The notes under the pieces were generated by a model, which had not been told where the DNA came from, did no database searches, and worked only from the letters and a program-made list of their open reading frames with translations. A stretch of DNA of 64,000 nt from Alicyclobacillus sp. SP_1 (lineage in GTDB: Bacteria; Bacillota; Bacilli; Alicyclobacillales; Alicyclobacillaceae): assembly GCF_024706985.1 (NCBI RefSeq), contig NZ_JAMCCX010000013.1:1-64000 (forward strand), read 5' to 3'. Position numbers and translations under genes: made by a program. Below are positions 14,740 through 28,018 of this stretch, in pieces (positions within the stretch are counted from its first letter, which is position 1; each line of letters starts with the position of its first letter).

Positions 14740-15201
14740 ATGAAGAAGAGGATCGTTGGATGGGTGGTTCTCAGTGCGCTTCTGGTGACCGGGTGTGGGA
14801 CGGCGGCCGCATCTGCGTCCACGTCTGCTTCGGTTCCTGCGTCCACATCTACATCTGCAACGGTTCCGGCGGCTGCATCTGCTTCAACATCGTTGGGTGC
14901 CGCATCGACGGGCGACAGCACCACCGGGAGTGGCGTGGTTGCGGCGTCTAATGAGAATGTACAAGAGACTTCGCTTCATCTCAAACCGGGTGCTGCTTGT
15001 TGTGGCTTGATTCCAGCGTCGACGTTTGCAAGTTTTCTTGAGAAATTGCCGGGAGTTACGAAAGTTGAGGCGGCGCCTGCCGCAGCGAGTTCTGCCACGG
15101 ACGATGTGAATTTGTCCATTTGGTACAATGCGGCCGCGACCAACCCGAACGTGATTTCCAATGAAGTCCTTCAAGCTTCCGGGTATGTGGTGACGAAGTG
15201 A
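14740..15201 (+). CDS. lipoprotein with diverged heavy-metal-associated (HMA) domain
   Basis: A 153-residue protein with lipobox V-T-G-C19, a long Ala/Ser/Thr linker (about residues 20-70) and a C-terminal domain with the beta-alpha-beta pattern of HMA domains: ETSLHLKPGAACCGLIPAS, then FLEKLPGVTKVEA, an NLSIWYNA strand and a final ASGYVV. The usual CxxC is replaced by adjacent cysteines (A-C-C-G). It would be an external metal binder comparable in position to a MerP or CopZ domain. It is the first gene of an operon with a CcdA-type permease and a CopZ-like Fe-S protein, which supports a metal role. The metal is unknown. Confidence 0.7.
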   Translation: MKKRIVGWVVLSALLVTGCGTAAASASTSASVPASTSTSATVPAAASASTSLGAASTGDSTTGSGVVAASNENVQETSLHLKPGAACCGLIPASTFASFLEKLPGVTKVEAAPAAASSATDDVNLSIWYNAAATNPNVISNEVLQASGYVVTK

Positions 15202-15214
15202 CGGGGGAGCCTGA

Positions 15215-15934
15215 ATGAATTTCGCGGACTTGAGTCTCGTCTTTGTTGCGGGTGTTGCTGCAGCGTTCAATCCTTGCGGCGTTGCCATGTTACCATCCTA
15301 TGTCTCATATCTAGTCGGCGGATCCGATGAGGGTCCCGAGGGTACTGCCGCGGAAAGTCGCTCGTTTGTGGAAAACGGCATGCGCGGTGCCGCAGTCGGT
15401 CTTTGGATGACGCTCGGTTTTCTCGCCGTATTTGTGGTGATTGGAATAGGCCTCACCGGAACTGGCCAAGCGCTTGAGGCGTTCGTTCCCTATTTGTCCG
15501 TGGCCATCGGCCTCCTGCTCGTCATCTTAGGAGGTCGGATGTTGGCGGGTAAGTCGTTGGAATGGAACACTTCGCGATACGCCCATCGTCTAACGAAGTG
15601 GATTCGCGTGGACTCCAAGTCGTCGATGTTTGTCTATGGTGTTTTTTACGCGATTGTCTCACTCGGTTGTACGTTGCCTATTTTCCTTATGTTGGTCTCG
15701 CAGGCCATGTTGTTTGGGCAGTATGTCGTAGGCGTGCTGAACTTTATCGCTTACGCGCTGGGCATGGGCCTTGTGGTGATAGCGATATCCATGCTCGCCA
15801 TGATGTCGAGAGCGTTGGTGACAGCCAAATTGCGCCAGATTATGCCGTTTGTGACGAAGGCCAGCGCAGTCATTATTATCGCCGCAGGTCTCTACGTCAT
15901 GTACTACACGTTGATTGTTGGGAAGCTCATCTAA
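15215..15934 (+). CDS. ccdA: CcdA/DsbD-type membrane protein
   Basis: A 239-residue protein with six predicted helices. It has the two membrane cysteines of the family: Cys in FNPCGVAMLPSYVSYLVGG in helix 1 and Cys in SLGCTLPIFLML in helix 4. CcdA passes electrons from thioredoxin across the membrane. Related proteins sit in mercury and copper clusters as permeases or thiol reductants. Placed between an HMA-like lipoprotein and a CopZ-type protein, it may reduce metal-binding cysteines or move the metal. The ATG follows GGGGGAGCC. It is 13 bases downstream of the lipoprotein gene, so co-transcription is very likely. Confidence 0.85.
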   Translation: MNFADLSLVFVAGVAAAFNPCGVAMLPSYVSYLVGGSDEGPEGTAAESRSFVENGMRGAAVGLWMTLGFLAVFVVIGIGLTGTGQALEAFVPYLSVAIGLLLVILGGRMLAGKSLEWNTSRYAHRLTKWIRVDSKSSMFVYGVFYAIVSLGCTLPIFLMLVSQAMLFGQYVVGVLNFIAYALGMGLVVIAISMLAMMSRALVTAKLRQIMPFVTKASAVIIIAAGLYVMYYTLIVGKLI

Positions 15935-16043
15935 CCCGCCATCGATATTCGATACAAAGGGATATGGGGTCTTCGCACCCGTGTTATCGGTGGTGGTCCA
16001 TCAGCTTAACATAAAAACAAAATGAGAATTGCGAGGTGGGAAT

Positions 16044-16643
16044 ATGTCTTCGTGTTGTTCGACACAGCAAACACTAGACGCTTCGTGTGCGGATACAGGG
16101 CAGGAAAGTTTGGGTGTTGCGCCGGGAGTGGTATCGACCTCTTCTGATGCAGACGCGGCGCTTTGTGCCTCTTGTGGTCAAAAAGGACGCGAGGTCGATG
16201 TGTTGACCGTCAAAAGCATGCTCACGCCATCAGCTCTGGCGACTCTCGACATCAGCCAACGCTTTCGGTTTTGCTCACATCCTGCTTGCAAAGTGGTCTA
16301 TTTCGGCCACACGGGCCAGCAGTTTTTGATAGAGGATATGTCGATACCCGTCTTCCAAAAAGACACTCGCCCGAGCGTACCTGTCTGCTATTGTTTCGGT
16401 TGGACGCGGGCTCGCATTCGCGAAGAACTGTCCTCCACAGGAACCAGCACAGCAGCTGCATCGATTTCTGCGCACATCAAAGCGGGCCGTTGCGCGTGCG
16501 AAGTGAATAATCCGCAAGGGGCATGTTGTCTCGGGAATGTGGCATCATCGGTCAAAGAGGCGCGTCAGCAACTCACGCATGTCTCGGTGAACTCGGCCCA
16601 AACTGCCCCGAGAGGCGTTTTCGAAGCACAGGAGGTGCATTGA
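16044..16643 (+). CDS. CopZ-like iron-sulfur metallochaperone
   Basis: A 199-residue Cys-rich protein resembling the N-terminal zinc/[2Fe-2S] domain of Archaeoglobus CopZ (family named putative iron-sulfur cluster-binding metallochaperone). Visible elements are CASCGQKGREVDVLTVKSML, FCSHPACKVVYFG (zinc-type ligands) and the Fe-S pattern VCYCFGWTRARI ... GRCACEVNNPQGACCLGNV. The usual C-terminal HMA domain of CopZ is missing; the HMA-like part is supplied by the lipoprotein two genes upstream. The N-terminal 40 residues are Ser/Cys-rich (SSCCSTQQTLDASC). ATG at 16044 with AGGTGG. This is the third gene of the operon. Confidence 0.8.
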   Translation: MSSCCSTQQTLDASCADTGQESLGVAPGVVSTSSDADAALCASCGQKGREVDVLTVKSMLTPSALATLDISQRFRFCSHPACKVVYFGHTGQQFLIEDMSIPVFQKDTRPSVPVCYCFGWTRARIREELSSTGTSTAAASISAHIKAGRCACEVNNPQGACCLGNVASSVKEARQQLTHVSVNSAQTAPRGVFEAQEVH

Positions 16644-18098: not shown

Positions 18099-18566
18099 TT
18101 GTCGTTGTGGCAGGTTTCTTTTTTGAGCTTGGCAGTCACTTCAGTGTTTGGACTCATTCTGTTTGTCGGGTATACGTTTCGCATTCGCATTCAGTATCCA
18201 CTGACGCTGGTGAGTTTGCATGTGGCGCTGGCCTCAGTCACGGTCGTCCTCTATACTCTCTCTACTATCCAGGTATTCTTGCACCCATCGGTCAGCTTTG
18301 GATTTCGATTGCTGATTCTTTTTGCCGATGTTGTGCTGCTAGCCACGTACATAACTGGCCTGACGTTCTTCATTCGTTTTGATGCCAAACGGAAGGGAAT
18401 GCGTCAGCATCTCATCGCAACACATCTCGTCATGGCGGGAGTGACGTTTATTTTTGTGACATCGGGGACGATAGCACTCGTAAAACCTACCGTGCCTGCA
18501 CACACGCTCTACGGACCCAATCGGTACGAAGTCCACAAATACGAGCAATTCCACCACATTCACTAG
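18099..18566 (+). CDS. four-helix membrane protein of unknown function
   Basis: 155 residues. Four hydrophobic helices can be drawn at about 5-25, 35-60, 65-90 and 105-128. The C-terminal tail is hydrophilic and ends in HKYEQFHHIH, a possible metal or heme contact but not a known motif. It is somewhat like small accessory membrane proteins near oxidases (DUF420-type), but the match is too weak to name. TTG start with AAGGTGG at 18085-18091. Confidence 0.6.
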   Translation: MSLWQVSFLSLAVTSVFGLILFVGYTFRIRIQYPLTLVSLHVALASVTVVLYTLSTIQVFLHPSVSFGFRLLILFADVVLLATYITGLTFFIRFDAKRKGMRQHLIATHLVMAGVTFIFVTSGTIALVKPTVPAHTLYGPNRYEVHKYEQFHHIH

Positions 18567-18649: not shown

Positions 18650-19288
18650 ATGAGTGTCAGTGGTAAGCCCGGCAAACGTCGGTCATCGACTCGGTCGATG
18701 GTATTTGTTGTAGGCGTTGCGGTTCTGTTGCTTGTTGGGGCCTATATGGTGCCGATGCAGACGTCTCTGGGACAAGGTGTCACCGACCATGTGGTGATTG
18801 GCTGGCGTGGAGCCTATCGCCCTGCATCTCATCGGACAACCTTTGAGTTGCTCTACAACAATGGGACATACGCCAACATCACGCTCGGAACTGAAAATCC
18901 GGCCGACTTCAGTCAGCACGTGAGTGCGACGGAGTGGGTGACTCCGACCGACAGCGTTCAGTCGATTCGCTGGGCGGAACAGGCCAATCCCTCGGAGTTG
19001 TCTTATCTGCTCGGAACAAGTAACAATGCTCCACGTCCGTTTCATCCGTTTGCTGAAAGTCCGGTGGCCTACAGTGCGGCCCTCCTTCGGGTCTTGCAAA
19101 AAAATGATGTCAATCCGAAAGAATTTGGGGGACCCAACATTGTCCCTGGCAGTGTGCCGATTGCTTCGCTACCGAGCGGTGAACTGCAAATTGACACGAC
19201 CGCGGGGGGCAACAAGCTGGCGCAGTGCCAACCGGGGCAAACTCCTGCCGCTTTGGTCCGATTGATGTCTGTCAAAAAATCTTCCTGA
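18650..19288 (+). CDS. single-pass exported protein of unknown function
   Basis: 212 residues. A basic N-terminus (GKPGKRRSSTR) and one hydrophobic segment (MVFVVGVAVLLLVGAYMV) suggest a signal anchor. The external part starts with QTSLGQGVTDHVVIGWRG and has no recognised domain. It contains a single Cys in QCQPGQTP. GGAGGATATTTTC precedes the ATG. It is separated by 83 bases from the gene at 18099 and may share its transcript. Confidence 0.6.
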   Translation: MSVSGKPGKRRSSTRSMVFVVGVAVLLLVGAYMVPMQTSLGQGVTDHVVIGWRGAYRPASHRTTFELLYNNGTYANITLGTENPADFSQHVSATEWVTPTDSVQSIRWAEQANPSELSYLLGTSNNAPRPFHPFAESPVAYSAALLRVLQKNDVNPKEFGGPNIVPGSVPIASLPSGELQIDTTAGGNKLAQCQPGQTPAALVRLMSVKKSS

Positions 19289-19504: not shown

Positions 19505-20638
19505 TCATCCAAGTTGGGTGCGAATGGCTTTTTGTAGTGTTTTATAGGGGGTAAATGAATTTCGCGACCACGCTACGTCGCCTTCTTCGTCAATGATGGC
19601 AACTGTGGGAACACTGTTGACAGCGTATGCTTCACTGACCTCTCCTTTGGTGTCGACGAAGAGTGGCCACTTGGCCGGGAGTTTTTTTGCGTCCCAGGTA
19701 GCAACATGTTTGAGACTTGACTCAACAGGCAGTACGTCAATGAGCCGGATGGGTAATGTCGGGTCGTTTTGGTGTAGTTTCTCCAGAGTGCGCATTTCCG
19801 CTCCAAGGCCGGTCGCCCATGATGCGAGGAAAACATCAATTTGGGGCTTGCCGCTCTGGTAAGCCAGTTCTCCCATAGGTCTCCCGTTTTCGTACACTGG
19901 CAACTTGGATGGAGGTGGTCCGGCGGTGGGCGGAGTCACTGCCACGGAACTTTTCAGCGACGCACTGGGCAAAAGTTGCACTAAACTCTCAGCAAATTCG
20001 TCCGTCTGCGACTGACCTGTGACGTAGTCGGGTGCTACCGTGTATTTGCGAGTTTCCTGGCCTTTTTCGTTGAGCACGTAGACCACTGGCGACTCTTCTA
20101 CTTCGCCAGTACGAATGGAGGTTGCCACTCCGTACTTGCGCCAGACCGTCTTGAGGGTTTGGTCTGGCCCACTAAGCATCTCCCAGTTACCTTGCAACTG
20201 ATGAGACGTCTGGTAGTGCATGAGAACCTGGTTTGCTTGTTGGGTTGGATTGGCGGTGACAGCAGCAAGTACAACCTGGCTTCGTGCGGATGGATTCAGT
20301 AGCTTCACGGCGTGGGACATCTCGTTTAAGAGCAAAGGGGTGGCTGTGGTGTCGTCTGGATTGACGAATGTCAAGAGAACGACTTTCCCCTGCCACTGGC
20401 TCGGACCGACCATTTGATGCAGTTGATTGTGCAACTGGAAGGCTGGAGCTGGTTGGTTGTTTAATTTGGTCCCTGCATCCATGGCGATGGATGCTGTACC
20501 CGCTGGTGCGGGAGCTATCGCTACGGTAGAAGGAGCAGACTCAGAAAAGGTGTGGTATAGTCCATAGATTATGCCTATACCGAGAACGACGCTGATGACA
20601 GGAAGACTCCACTCTTTTAGTCCTTTAGATTCTGACAC
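19505..20638 (-). CDS. Sco1-like / TlpA-like fusion protein without cysteines
   Basis: A 377-residue protein with an N-terminal membrane anchor (about 12-27) and two thioredoxin-fold domains outside. Domain 1 (about 62-225) follows the Sco1/SenC layout (PAFQLHNQ, GKVVLLTFVNPDD, MLSGPDQTLKTVWRKYGV, SPVVYVLNEKGQ). Domain 2 (about 240-377) follows TlpA/ResA (PQIDVFLASWATG, AEMRTLEKL, NSVPTVAIIDEEG). Sco proteins insert copper into oxidase subunit II and TlpA reduces thiols. Here the Sco CPxxC position reads N93-PDD-T97, the Sco copper histidine before SPVVYVL is Glu, and TlpA WCxxC reads W274-A-T-G-L. There is no cysteine anywhere. It is divergent from the oxidase operon. GTG start. Confidence 0.8.
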   Translation of the reverse strand: MSESKGLKEWSLPVISVVLGIGIIYGLYHTFSESAPSTVAIAPAPAGTASIAMDAGTKLNNQPAPAFQLHNQLHQMVGPSQWQGKVVLLTFVNPDDTTATPLLLNEMSHAVKLLNPSARSQVVLAAVTANPTQQANQVLMHYQTSHQLQGNWEMLSGPDQTLKTVWRKYGVATSIRTGEVEESPVVYVLNEKGQETRKYTVAPDYVTGQSQTDEFAESLVQLLPSASLKSSVAVTPPTAGPPPSKLPVYENGRPMGELAYQSGKPQIDVFLASWATGLGAEMRTLEKLHQNDPTLPIRLIDVLPVESSLKHVATWDAKKLPAKWPLFVDTKGEVSEAYAVNSVPTVAIIDEEGDVAWSRNSFTPYKTLQKAIRTQLG

Positions 20639-20811: not shown

Positions 20812-21090
20812 AGAGATGCGTTTTTTGTGTCCCACTATCGAGAGAGAAGTGCTGTACATAGCTTCACTATTAATTTTCTCTCGCATTGTCTACGTACAAG
20901 GCTTTACCCCTTCTGGTTTGTTGGCCGTTGGCCCTTCAGCGACTGCTTTTCTTTCGGAGCAGCCACTTTCCACTTACAGTACATGAAGTCTGCGTTTTTT
21001 GCGTCGGATGCATGGTGGTGGGGCGGTGTGCCTTTTTTGTGTCCCAGCCATCGCTGACAGGGTGAAAGATTGTTAGGGGGTGAAGAGTCG
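20812..21090 (+). other. long 5' leader of the oxidase cluster with direct repeats
   Basis: No convincing gene is present. The 14-mer TTTTTTGTGTCCCA occurs at 20821-20834 and again at 21033-21046, and GCGTTTTTTGCGTC lies at about 20994. A small hairpin (CTGCT...AGCAG) lies near 20943-20963. The repeats could be binding sites or part of RNA regulation. Confidence 0.4.
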
Positions 21091-21651
21091 ATGACATGGC
21101 GTTCCAGATTGAATGTTGCCGGGGTCATGGTTGTGGCCCTTGGCGTGAGTGCACTGGCGACCGGGTGTTCCACAACTAACCCGAACACGCTGTCGAAGTT
21201 TTTGACCGTCAATACCAGTGCTCACACAGTGAACGTCGAACTGATTGCCGGATACACGCCGGAAAACGACTATCTCAATTTTGACGGGTTTGCGCATGGT
21301 CAGTTGGTGGTCACCGTTCCAACCGGATACAAGGTGAACTTTGACTACTACAACAATGCCGGCATCCCGGTTGATATTGGGGTATACGGGTCGAAATACG
21401 GAAAATTGGCATTTGCCAAGGCCGGAGATTCGATTCGAGACATCATGCTCAACCCGGATTCTATTCCGTCGGCCATCGCTCCGGGAACATCGGAGAACAT
21501 CAAGTTTACGGCAGACCGGTCCGGCACGTTCAAAATCGCGAATTATCTAAGTAGATACCAAATGTTCCAAACTCATCCTTACGACGATTTGGGGATGTGG
21601 GCCACGCTGAAAGTCGTCAACGGCGCTACGCCGAGTATCTCGGTGTCGTGA
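21091..21651 (+). CDS. sulfocyanin-like lipoprotein lacking most copper ligands
   Basis: 186 residues. Lipobox A-T-G-C26, then a cupredoxin-like domain with the sulfocyanin pattern: NFDGFAHGQLVVTVPTGYKV, NNAGIPVDIGVY, IAPGTSENIKFTADRSGTFK and a C-terminal THPYDDLGMWATLKV. Active sulfocyanins have His in the PH motif, then Cys, His and Met near the C-terminus. Here the first His position reads V94 in GIPVD, no Cys exists apart from the lipid-modified one, and only H162 and M169 could remain. It should fold like a blue copper protein but not hold type 1 copper. ATG at 21091 follows AGGGGGTG. First gene of the oxidase operon. Confidence 0.7.
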   Translation: MTWRSRLNVAGVMVVALGVSALATGCSTTNPNTLSKFLTVNTSAHTVNVELIAGYTPENDYLNFDGFAHGQLVVTVPTGYKVNFDYYNNAGIPVDIGVYGSKYGKLAFAKAGDSIRDIMLNPDSIPSAIAPGTSENIKFTADRSGTFKIANYLSRYQMFQTHPYDDLGMWATLKVVNGATPSISVS

Positions 21652-21667: not shown

Positions 21668-22306
21668 ATGTCAGATAATCTTGTGAACCAACCTGAAGAC
21701 CCGGAAGTAGAGGATTGGAGTCGCCGACAGTTTTTGATAGGTGCGGGAGGAGCATTGGCGGTAGGCGCAGCGGCGTTAGCGGTCAACTCGCATATCGGTC
21801 GATTTTTTTACAACCTCTCGATGCCAGCAGTGCAAAAAGGCTTGATTCATGTTCATGAAGCGGACTTTTACTTCTTACCGAACAAAATGACTTGGCGAGT
21901 CGGCGACCGCATTACCATCAAGCAGCACAATGAGAGCGTCTCTCGTTATCACGAGATGCAAATTGGCCGCGGATTTGATTCCGTTCAAACCTTGCTCGGC
22001 ACGCAGCGGCAGCAGTTCAAGACCGACTTCTGGGATGGTGTTCACGTGACCATTCTCGATGCACACGCAGTCGATAATTTAGTAACTCACCACGCTATCG
22101 TCAAATGTGATGTATCACCTCATCCGTGGCTTTTGACGGGACCTGGTTTAGGTAATTTCAGCCCAACCTTGGAGCCGGGCGGCTGGGTGATGTATGAATT
22201 CACCGTTCCTGACAAGCCGGGTATCTGGCACTATGGATGCTTCGTGCAAGGCTATATTCATTACGAGGAAGGCATGAAAGGCACGATTCACATTCTGCCT
22301 GCATAA
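21668..22306 (+). CDS. Tat-exported cupredoxin-domain protein
   Basis: 212 residues. The twin-arginine signal W-S-R19-R20-Q-F-L-I-G and a hydrophobic stretch precede a cupredoxin domain (EADFYFLPNKMTWRVGDR ... YEFTVPDKPGIWHYGCFVQ). The type 1 copper ligands look complete: H95, C191, H198 and M203 in GCFVQGYIHYEEGM. Export by Tat suggests folding with cofactor before export, and the window has a Tat operon at 30759-31805. It lies 16 bases after the sulfocyanin-like gene and upstream of oxidase subunit II. It is therefore the likely electron carrier to the oxidase. Confidence 0.8.
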   Translation: MSDNLVNQPEDPEVEDWSRRQFLIGAGGALAVGAAALAVNSHIGRFFYNLSMPAVQKGLIHVHEADFYFLPNKMTWRVGDRITIKQHNESVSRYHEMQIGRGFDSVQTLLGTQRQQFKTDFWDGVHVTILDAHAVDNLVTHHAIVKCDVSPHPWLLTGPGLGNFSPTLEPGGWVMYEFTVPDKPGIWHYGCFVQGYIHYEEGMKGTIHILPA

Positions 22307-22376: not shown

Positions 22377-23189
22377 GTGAAAGACGCCGTGAAATTCGGA
22401 GTTATCTGGGTTATTTTGAGTGCCATTTTAGAATGGTGCGTCTATCTCGTTCGGCACATGTTCTATACCACAGCAACGATACAAGCCGTCGATGGACAAC
22501 ACGCCGCAGATTTCATTTTCTACGTAGTGACACCCATCTTTGCTTTCGTGGTACTGATGCTGATTTTTGGCTTTACGCAGTTTCGTCGGCGCCGCAACGA
22601 CAAAGGCGGTAATAGCCCGCACCAGTTCCGGACCAATCGTGCCTTTGTAGGGATTTGGATTGGTGTGTCGCTCGTCGTCAACCTCTTTCTGTTTGTTCAT
22701 CCGACGGCTTCTGCTATGGAGAACTATTGGAATCAATCCGTCGAGTATCAAAAGAGCCCGAATCTTCTCGTAGTCGATGTTTACGCGCGGCAATGGCAGT
22801 GGATGTACTCTTATCCACAGTACGGCATCGCGAATGCAGTGAACAGTGCTGGCAACGGCGAATTGGTTTTGCCTGTTGACCGCCCTGTCCAGTTTGTACT
22901 TCGCTCCTATGACTTCAATCATTATTACGACGTGGAAGCGGATGTTATCCACTCCTTCTGGATTCCTGCCTTTGGCTGGAAGACGGACGTTATTCCTGGC
23001 GAAACTCGCTACGAGTACGCGTATCCAACGGAACTAGGAAGCACCGCAGAGAATCAAATGTTCCGCGTGCAGTGCGCAGAAGTCTGTGGGCCAGGTCACC
23101 CGTATATGTACACCGGGATGAAAGTGGTTACAGCATCGCAGTTCAGCGCCTGGATTCAGAAACAGAAAAAACTGCAGTCTTCATCCTGA
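22377..23189 (+). CDS. ctaC: cytochrome c oxidase subunit II (CuA protein)
   Basis: 270 residues. Two N-terminal helices and an external cupredoxin domain with the electron-entry aromatic patch RQWQWMYSYP. All CuA ligands are present: H192 (IHSFW), C233, E235, C237, H241 and M244 in QCAEVCGPGHPYM. There is no fused cytochrome c domain, so electrons must come from a separate carrier, plausibly the cupredoxin encoded upstream. GTG start at 22377 with AAAGGAGGGCGG. Part of the operon with subunits I and III. Confidence 0.93.
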   Translation: MKDAVKFGVIWVILSAILEWCVYLVRHMFYTTATIQAVDGQHAADFIFYVVTPIFAFVVLMLIFGFTQFRRRRNDKGGNSPHQFRTNRAFVGIWIGVSLVVNLFLFVHPTASAMENYWNQSVEYQKSPNLLVVDVYARQWQWMYSYPQYGIANAVNSAGNGELVLPVDRPVQFVLRSYDFNHYYDVEADVIHSFWIPAFGWKTDVIPGETRYEYAYPTELGSTAENQMFRVQCAEVCGPGHPYMYTGMKVVTASQFSAWIQKQKKLQSSS

Positions 23190-23231
23190 CACTTGCCGCT
23201 TACTTCACTGTAGAGATTGGAGGGAAATTCG

Positions 23232-25079
23232 TTGAGTTCCATTCCCCAAACGGGCGTTGATACGGGTCGACCGCTGACGCGCCGATACAAAAGAATGGCC
23301 CCGGTCCTGCGCGGATTGTTGTGGGCGCTGATTGGCTACATGGTCGTGGACATGATTGTTGCATTTCTCGATCCAGGCCCGACACACAGCCTATTCAACT
23401 TAGTTTCTCTGACATTCGCCTGGGTTGGTGGCGTGGTTGGTTGGACACTAGGAATCGGTACATGGGAGTCTGTCGTCCGTCCTGCTTTCGGATATCCAAT
23501 GAAATGGAAAGAAACGGTTGGCTGGCGGCGGTATTTTGAGTACAGTACGAATCACAAGGTCATCGGCATTCAGTACATGGTGTCTTCGCTCGGCGGTTTC
23601 ATCATTGCCGGAACCGCAGCCATGCTCATGCGCTTGCAGCTCATGGACGACCGCATGTGGTTCTTCCCCTACAGTAAATACTACTTGGTGACAGTTGGTA
23701 TTCACGGTACCATCATGATGTTCTCAGTGGCCACCGTGTTCATGGTCGGTGGACTTGGCAACTACCTTATCCCCATGATGGTCGGCTCCAATACGAGCGC
23801 GTTCTCTCGCCTGTCGGGAGTCAGTGTCTGGTTTGTCCCGGCTGGTATCTTGACGGTCGCCTTCAGCCCTCTCCTCGGTGCATGGACGACTGGCTGGCGT
23901 GGGTATGAACCACTCGCGTCTCAGGATGGGTCAGGCATCATCTACTACTATCTCGGAGTCTTCATTCTCCTCATGTCGTCCTTGATTGTGGCGGCGAATC
24001 TTGTTGCCACCATCGTCTTTCGTCGAGCCCCAGGACTCACCTGGAACCGCTTGCCGATGTACGCATGGGGCATGTTGGCTGTCTCGTTCTTGAACCTCAT
24101 CTGGATTCCCGAAATCATGATGACGTTCGTCATGGCACTACTGGATAAGATAGTCCCCTTGCCGATGTTTCAATCGACGGGTAGCCCGCTGGTCTATCTC
24201 CAGATGTTTTGGCTCTTTGGTCATCCGGAGGTCTACATTGTCGTTGTTCCAGCACTAGCTCTGTGGATGGAAATCATTCCAGTCATGGGCAGAAAGACGC
24301 TCTTTGCTCGTCAGTGGGGCGTCATTGGCTTGGTGTTCGTCATGCTCTTATCCGGTATGGTTTGGGCGCATCACTTATTCCCGACGCAGCAAAATGCGAC
24401 CATTCTCCCGTTCTCCTTCTTTACCGAGATGATTTCCATTCCGACCGGATTTGCGTTCATGGTGTCTATCGGAACCATGTGGAAGTCGAAGATGCGACTG
24501 AACACGCCATCCATTCTTATCATGATGAGCATGTTCAACTTCTTAATTGGTGGATTGACGGGCGTGTTCTTGGCGGATCCCGCTGTCAACATGCAACTTC
24601 ACGACACGTTTTTCGTAGTGGGTCACTTCCACTACACAATCATCGGCGGCATGGTGTTCTCCTCGTTTGCAGCGATGTACTACTATCTACCGAAGTTCTC
24701 GGGCCGCATGTACAACGAGAAGTGGGCGCAGTTGGGGGTATATTGGATTTTCCTCGCGTTCAACGCGACGTTCTTCCAATTCTTTATCCTCGGACTTCGT
24801 GGTATGAACCGTTGGGTGCCAGTTTATCCGGCTTACCTGCGCGCTCAGAACTTCGAAGTCTCAATCTTTGCTTTCCTATTAGGGTTTGGCTTTCTCTACA
24901 ATATCATCTACATCATCTATGTATGGCGTAGAGGAGAGAAAGTCGACGAAAATCCGTGGCAGTCGAAGACGCTGGAATGGACGACTTCATCCCCGCCAGC
25001 GGACATTAGTTTCGAAGAAATTCCCACGGTTACCGAGGGATTCTACGATTACAGTGATGGCGTTTCTACGGAGTCATAA
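23232..25079 (+). CDS. ctaD: heme-copper oxidase subunit I
   Basis: 615 residues. All heme and CuB ligands are visible: GIHGTIMMF (low-spin heme His), GHPEVY (CuB His with the cross-linking Tyr), WAHHLFPTQ (CuB His pair) and VGHFHYT (heme a3 and low-spin heme). It catalyses O2 reduction coupled to proton pumping. Two features are odd. About 100 residues, including two extra hydrophobic segments, precede the canonical TNHKVIGIQY start. The K-channel lysine of PTG-x-K is Ala in PTGFAFMVSIGTMW, with spacing to TMW conserved. TTG at 23232 is favoured by the RBS GGAGGGA at 23218-23225. Confidence 0.93.
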   Translation: MSSIPQTGVDTGRPLTRRYKRMAPVLRGLLWALIGYMVVDMIVAFLDPGPTHSLFNLVSLTFAWVGGVVGWTLGIGTWESVVRPAFGYPMKWKETVGWRRYFEYSTNHKVIGIQYMVSSLGGFIIAGTAAMLMRLQLMDDRMWFFPYSKYYLVTVGIHGTIMMFSVATVFMVGGLGNYLIPMMVGSNTSAFSRLSGVSVWFVPAGILTVAFSPLLGAWTTGWRGYEPLASQDGSGIIYYYLGVFILLMSSLIVAANLVATIVFRRAPGLTWNRLPMYAWGMLAVSFLNLIWIPEIMMTFVMALLDKIVPLPMFQSTGSPLVYLQMFWLFGHPEVYIVVVPALALWMEIIPVMGRKTLFARQWGVIGLVFVMLLSGMVWAHHLFPTQQNATILPFSFFTEMISIPTGFAFMVSIGTMWKSKMRLNTPSILIMMSMFNFLIGGLTGVFLADPAVNMQLHDTFFVVGHFHYTIIGGMVFSSFAAMYYYLPKFSGRMYNEKWAQLGVYWIFLAFNATFFQFFILGLRGMNRWVPVYPAYLRAQNFEVSIFAFLLGFGFLYNIIYIIYVWRRGEKVDENPWQSKTLEWTTSSPPADISFEEIPTVTEGFYDYSDGVSTES

Positions 25080-25109: not shown

Positions 25110-25709
25110 ATGAGCACGAACATCGAGCCAAATTTCGAAAACCCAACCGAACGCGTCTTGTATCCTATGCAATATGAGTTGGACAAAGAGGAACAGATGC
25201 GTCTGCGCGGCGGACTGACCTTGTGGCTCATCAGCATGAGTATTCCTATGGTCCTTCTGTACGAGCTGCGCTATGTTATTTCGGGGAAATACGTTGCCCC
25301 GAACGCCAACTGGCTGCTCGGGTTGCTTGGTCTCGTCGCTATGGTGATAGCTGGGTTGCTGACGAGCGCCGCCGTTCGTTCTGCAAAGAGACACAACCAG
25401 CGAGCCATCCTCATTCAGACGGGTTGGGCGTTCTGGTTTGCCCTTGCGGCGATGGTTTTGGTCGGTTGGCAGGTGTGCGACCGTACCATCAATCCCATCA
25501 GTCACTTTGGTGAGATGTTCTTCGTCTGCCAGGGTACCGGTGCTTTCTATATTCTCACTACCATCATTGCGGTACTGGCACTGCGCGGGCGCGTGAAGAG
25601 GTTGGCCGGGAGCATCAAGAATTATTGGGGCGCTTCTGCAACCAACGCTTTTGTCTGGTACGTCTGCGTATTCTGGGCTCTGCTCTATTTACTGATATAC
25701 TGGCTATAG
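25110..25709 (+). CDS. ctaE: cytochrome c oxidase subunit III
   Basis: 199 residues with five predicted helices and the family features RLRGGLTLWLISMS, LTSAAVRSAKRHNQ and a C-terminal WYVCVFWALLYLLIYWL. Subunit III stabilises the oxidase core and proton uptake. AAAGGAGGAG precedes the ATG. It lies 30 bases after subunit I. Confidence 0.88.
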   Translation: MSTNIEPNFENPTERVLYPMQYELDKEEQMRLRGGLTLWLISMSIPMVLLYELRYVISGKYVAPNANWLLGLLGLVAMVIAGLLTSAAVRSAKRHNQRAILIQTGWAFWFALAAMVLVGWQVCDRTINPISHFGEMFFVCQGTGAFYILTTIIAVLALRGRVKRLAGSIKNYWGASATNAFVWYVCVFWALLYLLIYWL

Positions 25710-26099: not shown

Positions 26100-27074
26100 A
26101 TGTCGACAAAGGTGGCTTTGGTCAGAGAACCGCGGCGCGTGGCGATGCATCCGAAAATGCGCGCGCTGCGTCTCTGGCTCGCTTGGTTGTGGTTAGCGGA
26201 CGCGGTTTTGGAAGCCATGCCTGGTGTTTGGAGCAAAGCCTTCTATGGTCACCTGCCCCACACGCTCATGCCGAGCATGCTGACAGAGACTCTCGAATCG
26301 TCACATGGCGTATTCCGTGTGGCGGTCGCGATGATGCAGAGTCTTTGGAATCGTGCGCCGTATGCAGCGAACGGTTCGCTGGTGTGTGTGGAACTGCTGT
26401 TGGCCTTATCTCTCGGTTTTTCTACCTCGTGCCGCCTGACTAGGACTACCCTCTGGGTGAGCTTTGTGCTCTCGGTGGCCATCTGGGTTTTTGGCGAAGG
26501 TGGAGGAGGACTCCTGTCTCTACAAGGTACGACCTATTATGCGGCGTTTCCAGGCGGCGCCCCGTTCTATGCCATTCTCAGCTATCTTCTGCTGTCCAAG
26601 AAGCCAGTGGCCATGCTCCAGCAAGGTGTAGCTTGGCTCCTCATCGCTTATTTCGGCTCTATGGCTGTCCTCCAGATGCTTCCTGGTACAGGCTACTGGA
26701 CAGTTGTAGGTCAACAGAATATTTACGGCAACACAGTCTATTCTTCTCTGCCGACGATTCTTAGCAATCCAATTGCCGCATATGGTGAATGGGCTGGGTT
26801 ACATCCCGTATTCGCGAATGTGCTCTTGATTTTGTTGCTGCTCCTCGCGGGCGGATGTGTCCTCTATCGCAGACGGATCTTTTCCTTCTATATATTTGCA
26901 GCCATACTGCTCTGGACTTGGTGGTTTGCCTTCGCGTTTGGCGGAATCTTTACCGGTCTCAGTACAGACGTTGGCACGCCGCCGCTACTCTTTATTCTCG
27001 GTCTCTTTATTTGGCGTGGTGAACTTCTCAAGTCGGAACACCATTCTGCACAGTCAACGAAAGCAAAGGGGTGA
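26100..27074 (+). CDS. polytopic membrane protein of the oxidase cluster
   Basis: 324 residues with about eight hydrophobic helices, a basic N-terminus (REPRRVAMHPKMRALRLWLAW) and two inter-helix loops rich in Gly and aromatic residues (GEGGGGLLSLQGTTYYAAFPGG, LPGTGYWTVVGQQNIYG). I do not recognise the family. The helix pattern is loosely like DoxX-type proteins. It starts 2 bases after the preceding stop and no good RBS precedes the ATG; an internal ATG at 26145 is possible. Genomic position implies a role in oxidase assembly or electron entry. Confidence 0.6.
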   Translation: MSTKVALVREPRRVAMHPKMRALRLWLAWLWLADAVLEAMPGVWSKAFYGHLPHTLMPSMLTETLESSHGVFRVAVAMMQSLWNRAPYAANGSLVCVELLLALSLGFSTSCRLTRTTLWVSFVLSVAIWVFGEGGGGLLSLQGTTYYAAFPGGAPFYAILSYLLLSKKPVAMLQQGVAWLLIAYFGSMAVLQMLPGTGYWTVVGQQNIYGNTVYSSLPTILSNPIAAYGEWAGLHPVFANVLLILLLLLAGGCVLYRRRIFSFYIFAAILLWTWWFAFAFGGIFTGLSTDVGTPPLLFILGLFIWRGELLKSEHHSAQSTKAKG

Positions 27075-28018
27075 ATGGAGTGGCTTTTGATCAATTGGAA
27101 AGCAGCCTGGAGACGAGCGCCGCATCAGAACTTGCACTGTCGTCTGTCAGTGCTTGGACCCGCGTGCGAGCCTATGTAGACCTGACCAAGCCTCGCATTC
27201 TCGTCATGCTGGTCTTCACGGCTCTTTGCGGGATGATGGTAGCGCTGGGTCACTTACCTCCTTTCGTGAAAGCGGTGGAGTGCATCGTCTTGTTGGCGCT
27301 GACCACGGGTGGGTCTGCGGCATTAAACATGTGGTATGACCGTGACATTGACGTTCTCATGCAACGGACCAAGCGTCGTCCCTTGCCGATGGGCTTAGTG
27401 CACCCTCGTTCAGCATTGATTTTTGGTATTTCGCTCATCGTGATTGGGTGCGTTGGATTGTACGTCTTGGTCAACCCACTGACCTGCTTCCTAACGTTCC
27501 TCGGTGCGGTCTACTACGTGGTCATCTACACATTTTGGCTGAAGCGAAAAACACCTCAAAATATTGTCATAGGTGGTGGTGCAGGAGCATTTCCGCCTCT
27601 GATTGGTGCGGCTGCGGTGGTTGGATACATCCCTGTGTCCGCGATACTTCTCTTCTTGACTGTCTTTTTGTGGACGCCGCCGCACTTTTGGTCTCTGGCG
27701 CTGTATCGAAACTCGGACTACCAAGCCGCCAACATTCCGATGATGCCCACCGTGCGCGGAGCGAGATCAACGAAATGGCAAAGCTTTTCGTATGCATGGT
27801 TGCTGACTGCATGTGTCGTGTGGCTTGGCTTTCAGCTGCACAATACGGCTCTTTTCCTACCCATTGCCGGACTTCTCTGCGCAGTGTTTCTGTTCTTTCT
27901 CTGGCGAGCCCTCCGAGAACAGGACCATGTCTTCGTCTGGGCTCGGCGTTCGTTTTTCTTTTCATTGCTCTTTTTGACCGCCATTTTCACTTTGGCCGCC
28001 TTGGTCAGTGTTCTCTAG
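27071..28018 (+). CDS. ctaB: protoheme IX farnesyltransferase
   Basis: 315 residues, UbiA-family prenyltransferase that converts heme B to heme O, the first step to heme A for the oxidase. Motifs are LTKPRILVMLVFTALCG, the first Asp-rich NMWYDRDIDVLMQRTKRRPLP and YTFWLKRKTPQNIVIGG. Nine helices. The GTG at 27071 overlaps the preceding stop. A second GTG at 27080 has better spacing to AAAGGGG and may be the true start. No heme A synthase (ctaA) is in the window. Confidence 0.93.
   Translation: MNGVAFDQLESSLETSAASELALSSVSAWTRVRAYVDLTKPRILVMLVFTALCGMMVALGHLPPFVKAVECIVLLALTTGGSAALNMWYDRDIDVLMQRTKRRPLPMGLVHPRSALIFGISLIVIGCVGLYVLVNPLTCFLTFLGAVYYVVIYTFWLKRKTPQNIVIGGGAGAFPPLIGAAAVVGYIPVSAILLFLTVFLWTPPHFWSLALYRNSDYQAANIPMMPTVRGARSTKWQSFSYAWLLTACVVWLGFQLHNTALFLPIAGLLCAVFLFFLWRALREQDHVFVWARRSFFFSLLFLTAIFTLAALVSVL

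Follow-up and report, generated by a model that had tools for sequence, protein, structure and literature searches.

There is a long-standing debate on whether Sco proteins act by copper transfer, by thiol chemistry or simply by binding, and the Arabidopsis homologue HCC2 keeps the question alive. The thioredoxin fold can also be used for binding without a redox centre, as in the ERp29-type chaperones, which are eukaryotic ER proteins. The Sco copper motif is CXXXCXnH (PMC9145763); HCC2 lacks it and is kept beside its active paralogue HCC1, with a distinct role (PMC3971200, PMC6307045). In Bradyrhizobium, TlpA reduces both ScoI and CoxB (PMC6696091), and the TlpA-ScoI pair is represented by structure 4txo.

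The protein described here is encoded in a 64,000-nucleotide stretch of DNA (the window), and its two halves correspond to the two reaction partners of the Bradyrhizobium system; here, however, they form one chain and neither half is able to do the reaction. The reduction of ScoI and CoxB by TlpA offers a reason for the original domain fusion. The protein shares with the Sco/SenC/YpmQ chaperones (PF02630) the fold, the predicted membrane anchor, the oxidase neighbourhood and a Pfam score above the cut-off, whereas the CxxxC and the distal His are all replaced and a second thioredoxin domain is fused. This C-terminal half has the fold of the ResA/StoA/TlpA oxidoreductases, with WATGL where these have WCxxC. 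HCC2 is the closest precedent, being a natural Sco without the copper motif whose active paralogue is kept; unlike the window protein, it is mitochondrial, has a single domain and retains other cysteines. With the ERp29-type chaperones, which belong to another lineage, the protein would share the non-redox binding use of the thioredoxin fold proposed here. It is the extreme member of a family whose two modules were switched off separately in different lineages; its gene is intact and lies next to the copper oxidase that the relatives probably serve.

Architecture of the Fusion Protein

The original prediction had described a 377-residue reading frame without any cysteine, and the coordinates, minus strand, GTG start codon and cysteine count of 0 in the translation were all confirmed (Table 1); a Shine-Dalgarno-like GGTGA is located 6 nt upstream of the start. 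A Sco-type membrane anchor is predicted at residues 11-31. The Sco half scores 36.1 bits against Pfam SCO1-SenC (PF02630; cut-off 22.8), and the AhpC-TSA and Redoxin profiles also exceed their cut-offs, matching best in the first half. The TlpA half (~244-376) resembles ResA (NCBIfam, E=1.5e-6) and, by sequence, StoA (structure 3erw, E=1.5e-4), both below curated cut-offs. The AlphaFold2 (AF2) model, obtained with 62 relatives in the alignment (pLDDT 83.9, pTM 0.77), consists of an N-terminal helix followed by two thioredoxin folds, and its best Foldseek matches are the Sco structures 2k6v, 1xzo and 4wbj and the ResA structures 1st9 and 1su9. The proposed pairing of Sco1 and TlpA folds in a single chain is supported.

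Table 1. Coordinates of the fusion gene, its domains and the neighbouring oxidase genes in the window.
Feature	Position	Strand	Basis
Cys-less Sco-pseudoTlpA fusion protein, 377 aa	19505..20638	(-)	ORF, profile matches, AF2 model, Foldseek
N-terminal membrane anchor helix (predicted), residues ~11-31	20546..20608	(-)	AF2 helix (modest confidence) and hydrophobic sequence
Sco-like thioredoxin domain, residues ~59-222	19973..20464	(-)	Pfam, family alignment, B. subtilis Sco alignment, AF2
TlpA/ResA-like thioredoxin domain, residues ~244-377	19508..19909	(-)	ResA/StoA sequence matches, alignment, AF2
Lipoprotein with SoxE domain, sulfocyanin-like; opens the divergent oxidase operon	21070..21651	(+)	PF06525
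Cupredoxin-like protein	21668..22306	(+)	Sequence; 57-66% identity between cluster orthologues
CoxB, full CuA ligand set	22377..23189	(+)	PF00116; CuA motif CAEVCGPGHPYM
CoxA	23217..25079	(+)	PF00115
CoxC-like subunit	25110..25709	(+)	Position and homologues; no Pfam match
CtaB (haem O synthase, UbiA family)	27071..28018	(+)	PF01040
Conserved membrane protein of oxidase neighbourhood (p18099)	18099..18566	(+)	Homologue in L049 cluster; no Pfam match
Conserved membrane-anchored protein of oxidase neighbourhood (p18650)	18650..19288	(+)	Homologues in L049, L023, L056; no Pfam match

The register of the Sco half was set by the family alignment and by alignment with B. subtilis Sco, the motif being CxxxCP. 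The two Sco cysteines are replaced by D96 (20351-20353) and T100 (20339-20341), the latter directly before the invariant P101, and the distal His by E182 (20093-20095), while T97, T98, P101, N130 and P131, which flank the former site, are kept. In the TlpA half, WCxxC has become W274-A-T-G-L278, with A275 and L278 at the Cys positions, and the cis-Pro P344 is conserved. The earlier claims of a His to Glu change, of WATGL and of a kept cis-Pro loop are borne out by these alignments, as is the loss of the active sites in both halves; the Sco cysteine positions had been placed at N93 and T97 under a CPxxC motif, three residues ahead of the true ones. A frameshift garbling the Sco motif was ruled out, as T97, T98, P101 and L102 align in frame, and so was a local mutation or sequencing error, since the changes affect five ligand positions, spread over two domains, alongside many other sites. 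With every active-site Cys and His gone, the sequence implies that the protein should be able neither to bind copper in the manner of Sco nor to exchange disulfides, in agreement with the earlier view that it may no longer do redox or thiol chemistry.

The fusion gene is divergent from the oxidase operon, with about 430 bp between them; this position and a CoxB with the CuA motif, both proposed at the outset, were verified. The genes p18099 and p18650 travel with sulfocyanin/CuA oxidase clusters, both being present in the L049 cluster and p18650 also in L023 and L056, and they are possible oxidase or assembly partners that have gone unrecognised. The region 14740-16643, ~3-5 kb from the fusion, holds a DsbD-type membrane protein together with a zinc-binding protein of the CopZ type and a small secreted protein containing Cys, a possible thiol or metal cassette.

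The Sco-TlpA Fusion Family

The window protein aligns with its relative L002 through both domains (E=1.4e-56 over residues 8-372) and with family profile A2, which includes the window protein itself, at E=4e-105 over nearly the full profile length. In the host's order, 28 of 41 relatives gave some match, many of them single-domain, and 20 of 59 genomes matched at E<=1e-10, some through a single-domain Sco; a wider sample of Bacilli outside the order yielded only one further partial match at E<=1e-12. A pattern scan over named genomes also located the fusion in Alicyclobacillus, Sulfobacillus, Ferroacidibacillus, acidophile-type MAGs, actinobacteria and acidobacteria. The scan used the Cys motif and is therefore biased against Cys-less members, a bias partly offset by a profile search of 27 of the scanned genomes and of each of the order's 59 genomes. 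In the 27 genomes, new places that were divergent or had been returned as loci were read, and no second doubly dead member was found among them. The fusion family, of largely acidophile-type bacteria, is real and apparently undescribed: literature text searches, which covered open-access articles and weigh little as evidence, returned no description of it.

The WCxxC states were called from alignment columns, as third domains otherwise confound motif counts. In 73 of the 91 members in the alignment, the Sco site is intact and the TlpA WCxxC is lost; 14 keep both. Three single members depart from these states: L027 misses one Sco Cys and keeps the His and WCxxC; L096 also misses one Sco Cys, and its second domain has no WCxxC; L014 (L150:7487-8689) is Sco-dead and TlpA-live, with Gly and Ser for the Sco cysteines and Asp for the His, and a DsbD gene was not found near it. 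The profile search later added L190:4161-6365, which is Sco-dead, its ligand positions being taken by Ser, Gly and apparently Met, and which keeps WCTAC. The window protein alone, among the 91 and the members found later, has both sites dead, and it lacks the family trait of at least one live redox site. A Sco-dead relative of L014, L016 (G027:C3:44318-44815), whose match is broken by a TAG, is possibly a decaying copy.

Triple fusions, in which Sco is followed by a WCxxC-less TlpA and then by a TlpA with WCxxC, occur at L092, L094, L099, L103, L104, L107, L113, L114, L116, L117, L118, L122 and L126; these loci are mostly actinobacterial, with stop-to-stop frames of 543-719 aa. Because they hold a WCxxC domain behind the WCxxC-less one, the dead TlpA domain is stably kept in the architecture. 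A DsbD/CcdA gene lies within 300 bp of 12/15 members with WCxxC versus 3/67 without (Fisher p=2e-9, a value that overstates the strength, the members being related); this adjacency hints at the way in which the TlpA half is powered and would predict the members still needing electrons.

Order of the Losses and Evolutionary Rate

In the best trees, the window protein and L002 are sisters (support 98/92). L002 is the same gene as in L049 (MAG HSP1.bin40), whose cluster matches the window in containing CoxC, CoxA, CoxB, cupredoxin, sulfocyanin-like protein, p18099, p18650 and the fusion. L002 keeps the Sco Cys/His site; thus, the loss of the TlpA cysteines probably predates the window/L002 split, whereas that of the Sco site is probably specific to the window lineage. 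Grouping the window protein with the clade in which both sites are live (P0001 and group A) does not give the best tree, yet the AU test does not reject it (p=0.36) because the window branch is very long; the sister relation to L002 therefore rests on the 98/92 support and on the shared gene cluster. All cysteines are indeed gone, but not in a single event, the TlpA loss being common to most of the family and the Sco loss lineage-specific. Cysteines in close orthologues, which had been named as the mark of a local mutation, were found for the Sco half (L002/L049) and not for the TlpA half. Among the orthologues surveyed, no second doubly dead one was found; linkage to the oxidase was found again in the L049 cluster. 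The congener G001 has neither the fusion gene nor the cupredoxin of this oxidase cluster, and the genomes searched contain no orthologue near enough for dN/dS.

The window end branch measures 2.7-3.3 substitutions per site, compared with 0.3-0.4 for L002 and a family median of 0.24; it is 8-9 times that of its sister, and no other member evolves nearly as fast. The fusion proteins of window and L049 are 34% identical, those of window and L056 28% and those of L049 and L056 45%; for CoxB, the cupredoxin and p18650, on the other hand, the distance from the window to L056 is similar to, or smaller than, that from L049 to L056, so that acceleration affects the fusion and not its oxidase neighbours. 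Both halves are accelerated: the Sco half is 41% identical to that of L002, for which the mean identity with its own kind is 55%, and the TlpA half 24%, against an L002 average of 38%. Of the near-invariant non-catalytic columns, the window protein keeps 28/37 and 9/13; the first figure is for the Sco half, in which no other member drops below 85%. Neutral drift to the observed identity would be expected to leave 5-25 stops (300 simulations) and 0 were observed, which rules out a simple pseudogene. The statement that the protein looks selected rather than decayed is thus upheld by the intact frame and the kept fold, and weakened by the fastest branch and the 28/37 Sco columns.

Other Sco Genes and Possible Function

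The genome (G000) contains two other Sco-like genes. C17 is a fusion with both sites intact (CTTVC, His, WCPDC) and adjoins a DsbD/CcdA gene, while C29 (L022:2448-5192) has a Sco domain with CYDDC inside a 915-residue protein. There are two CuA oxidases; the second, C50 (L148:4879-9516), is a sulfocyanin-cupredoxin-CoxB-CoxA-CoxC cluster with no fusion beside it, and no Sco paralogue was found next to it. PCuAC was not found in the genome.

The reading preferred here, with a probability of roughly 0.5, sees the window protein as a pseudo-enzyme that descends from a Sco-TlpA factor of oxidase assembly with a membrane anchor and is kept for thiol-independent binding in that assembly, the copper and thiol work being done by a paralogue. 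The ancestor would have been such an anchored factor, and the TlpA half, whose WCxxC was already lost in most of the family, is probably a docking domain for the Sco half. The window lineage has also lost the Sco copper/redox site (Cys to Asp, Cys to Thr, His to Glu), and its protein may still hold or position a partner, either apo-cupredoxin or apo-CoxB, on the outward side of the membrane. Given C17 and C29, two CuA oxidases and no PCuAC, copper loading and thiol reduction may be assigned to the intact C17 and/or the Sco domain of C29. A structural role fits the dead TlpA domain found in 73/91 members besides the window protein and, in triple fusions, between active Sco and active TlpA. The kept fold, the clean frame, the 28/37 and 9/13 columns, the presence of L002, with its Sco site, in the same cluster, the tie between WCxxC and a neighbouring DsbD/CcdA gene and the intact Sco sites at other places in the genome speak for binding; the accelerated branch and the loss of 9/37 near-invariant Sco columns, against it, also fit relaxed constraint.

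These last features would also be expected of a redundant gene, taken over by an intact paralogue and drifting to loss, with only folding and non-toxicity selected; the end branch 8-9 times the sister's, the few conserved Sco columns kept, the intact C17 and the congener G001 without a recognisable relative all point this way, but a branch of about 3 substitutions per site on which neither a stop nor a frame break arose excludes pure drift and requires selection on an intact protein for most of its length, and GC by codon position is similar to that of neighbouring genes; this explanation is considered less likely. Re-tooling of the Sco site, with D96, T100 and E182 as hard ligands for another metal, e.g., ferric iron, at acidic outer pH, would account for the His becoming acidic twice separately (E182 here, Asp in L014, whose Sco cysteines are lost too) and for the kept flanking residues; it is improbable, as L190 (Ser, Gly, apparently Met) and L014 (Gly, Ser for the cysteines) reveal no common new site, the loop near 174-180 is of low confidence in the AF2 model, and at very low pH most carboxylates carry a proton. 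Equally slight is the chance of a regulator or decoy that, in competition with the intact Sco paralogue, binds CoxB or sulfocyanin and so sets which oxidase gets copper: the expected Sco surface for CoxB lies near the changed site, even if two CuA oxidases in a genome with no PCuAC found, and a fusion divergent from one of them with no paralogue found beside the other, would suit such a role.

The family provides natural versions of one scaffold in which either the one site or the other is missing, and one version that lacks both, some of them beside identifiable oxidases. It is tentatively proposed that the doubly dead protein still helps in the biogenesis of the CuA oxidase through binding that needs neither thiols nor copper; if so, the family, with its Sco-live/TlpA-dead and Sco-dead/TlpA-live forms, would be a series in which nature has separated the functions of Sco and TlpA.

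Sco domains with CYxxCP were also seen in large proteins (L022, L018, L019, L033), where they follow a many-helix N-terminal part; in several of these, the N-terminal part resembles the window gene at 26100-27074.
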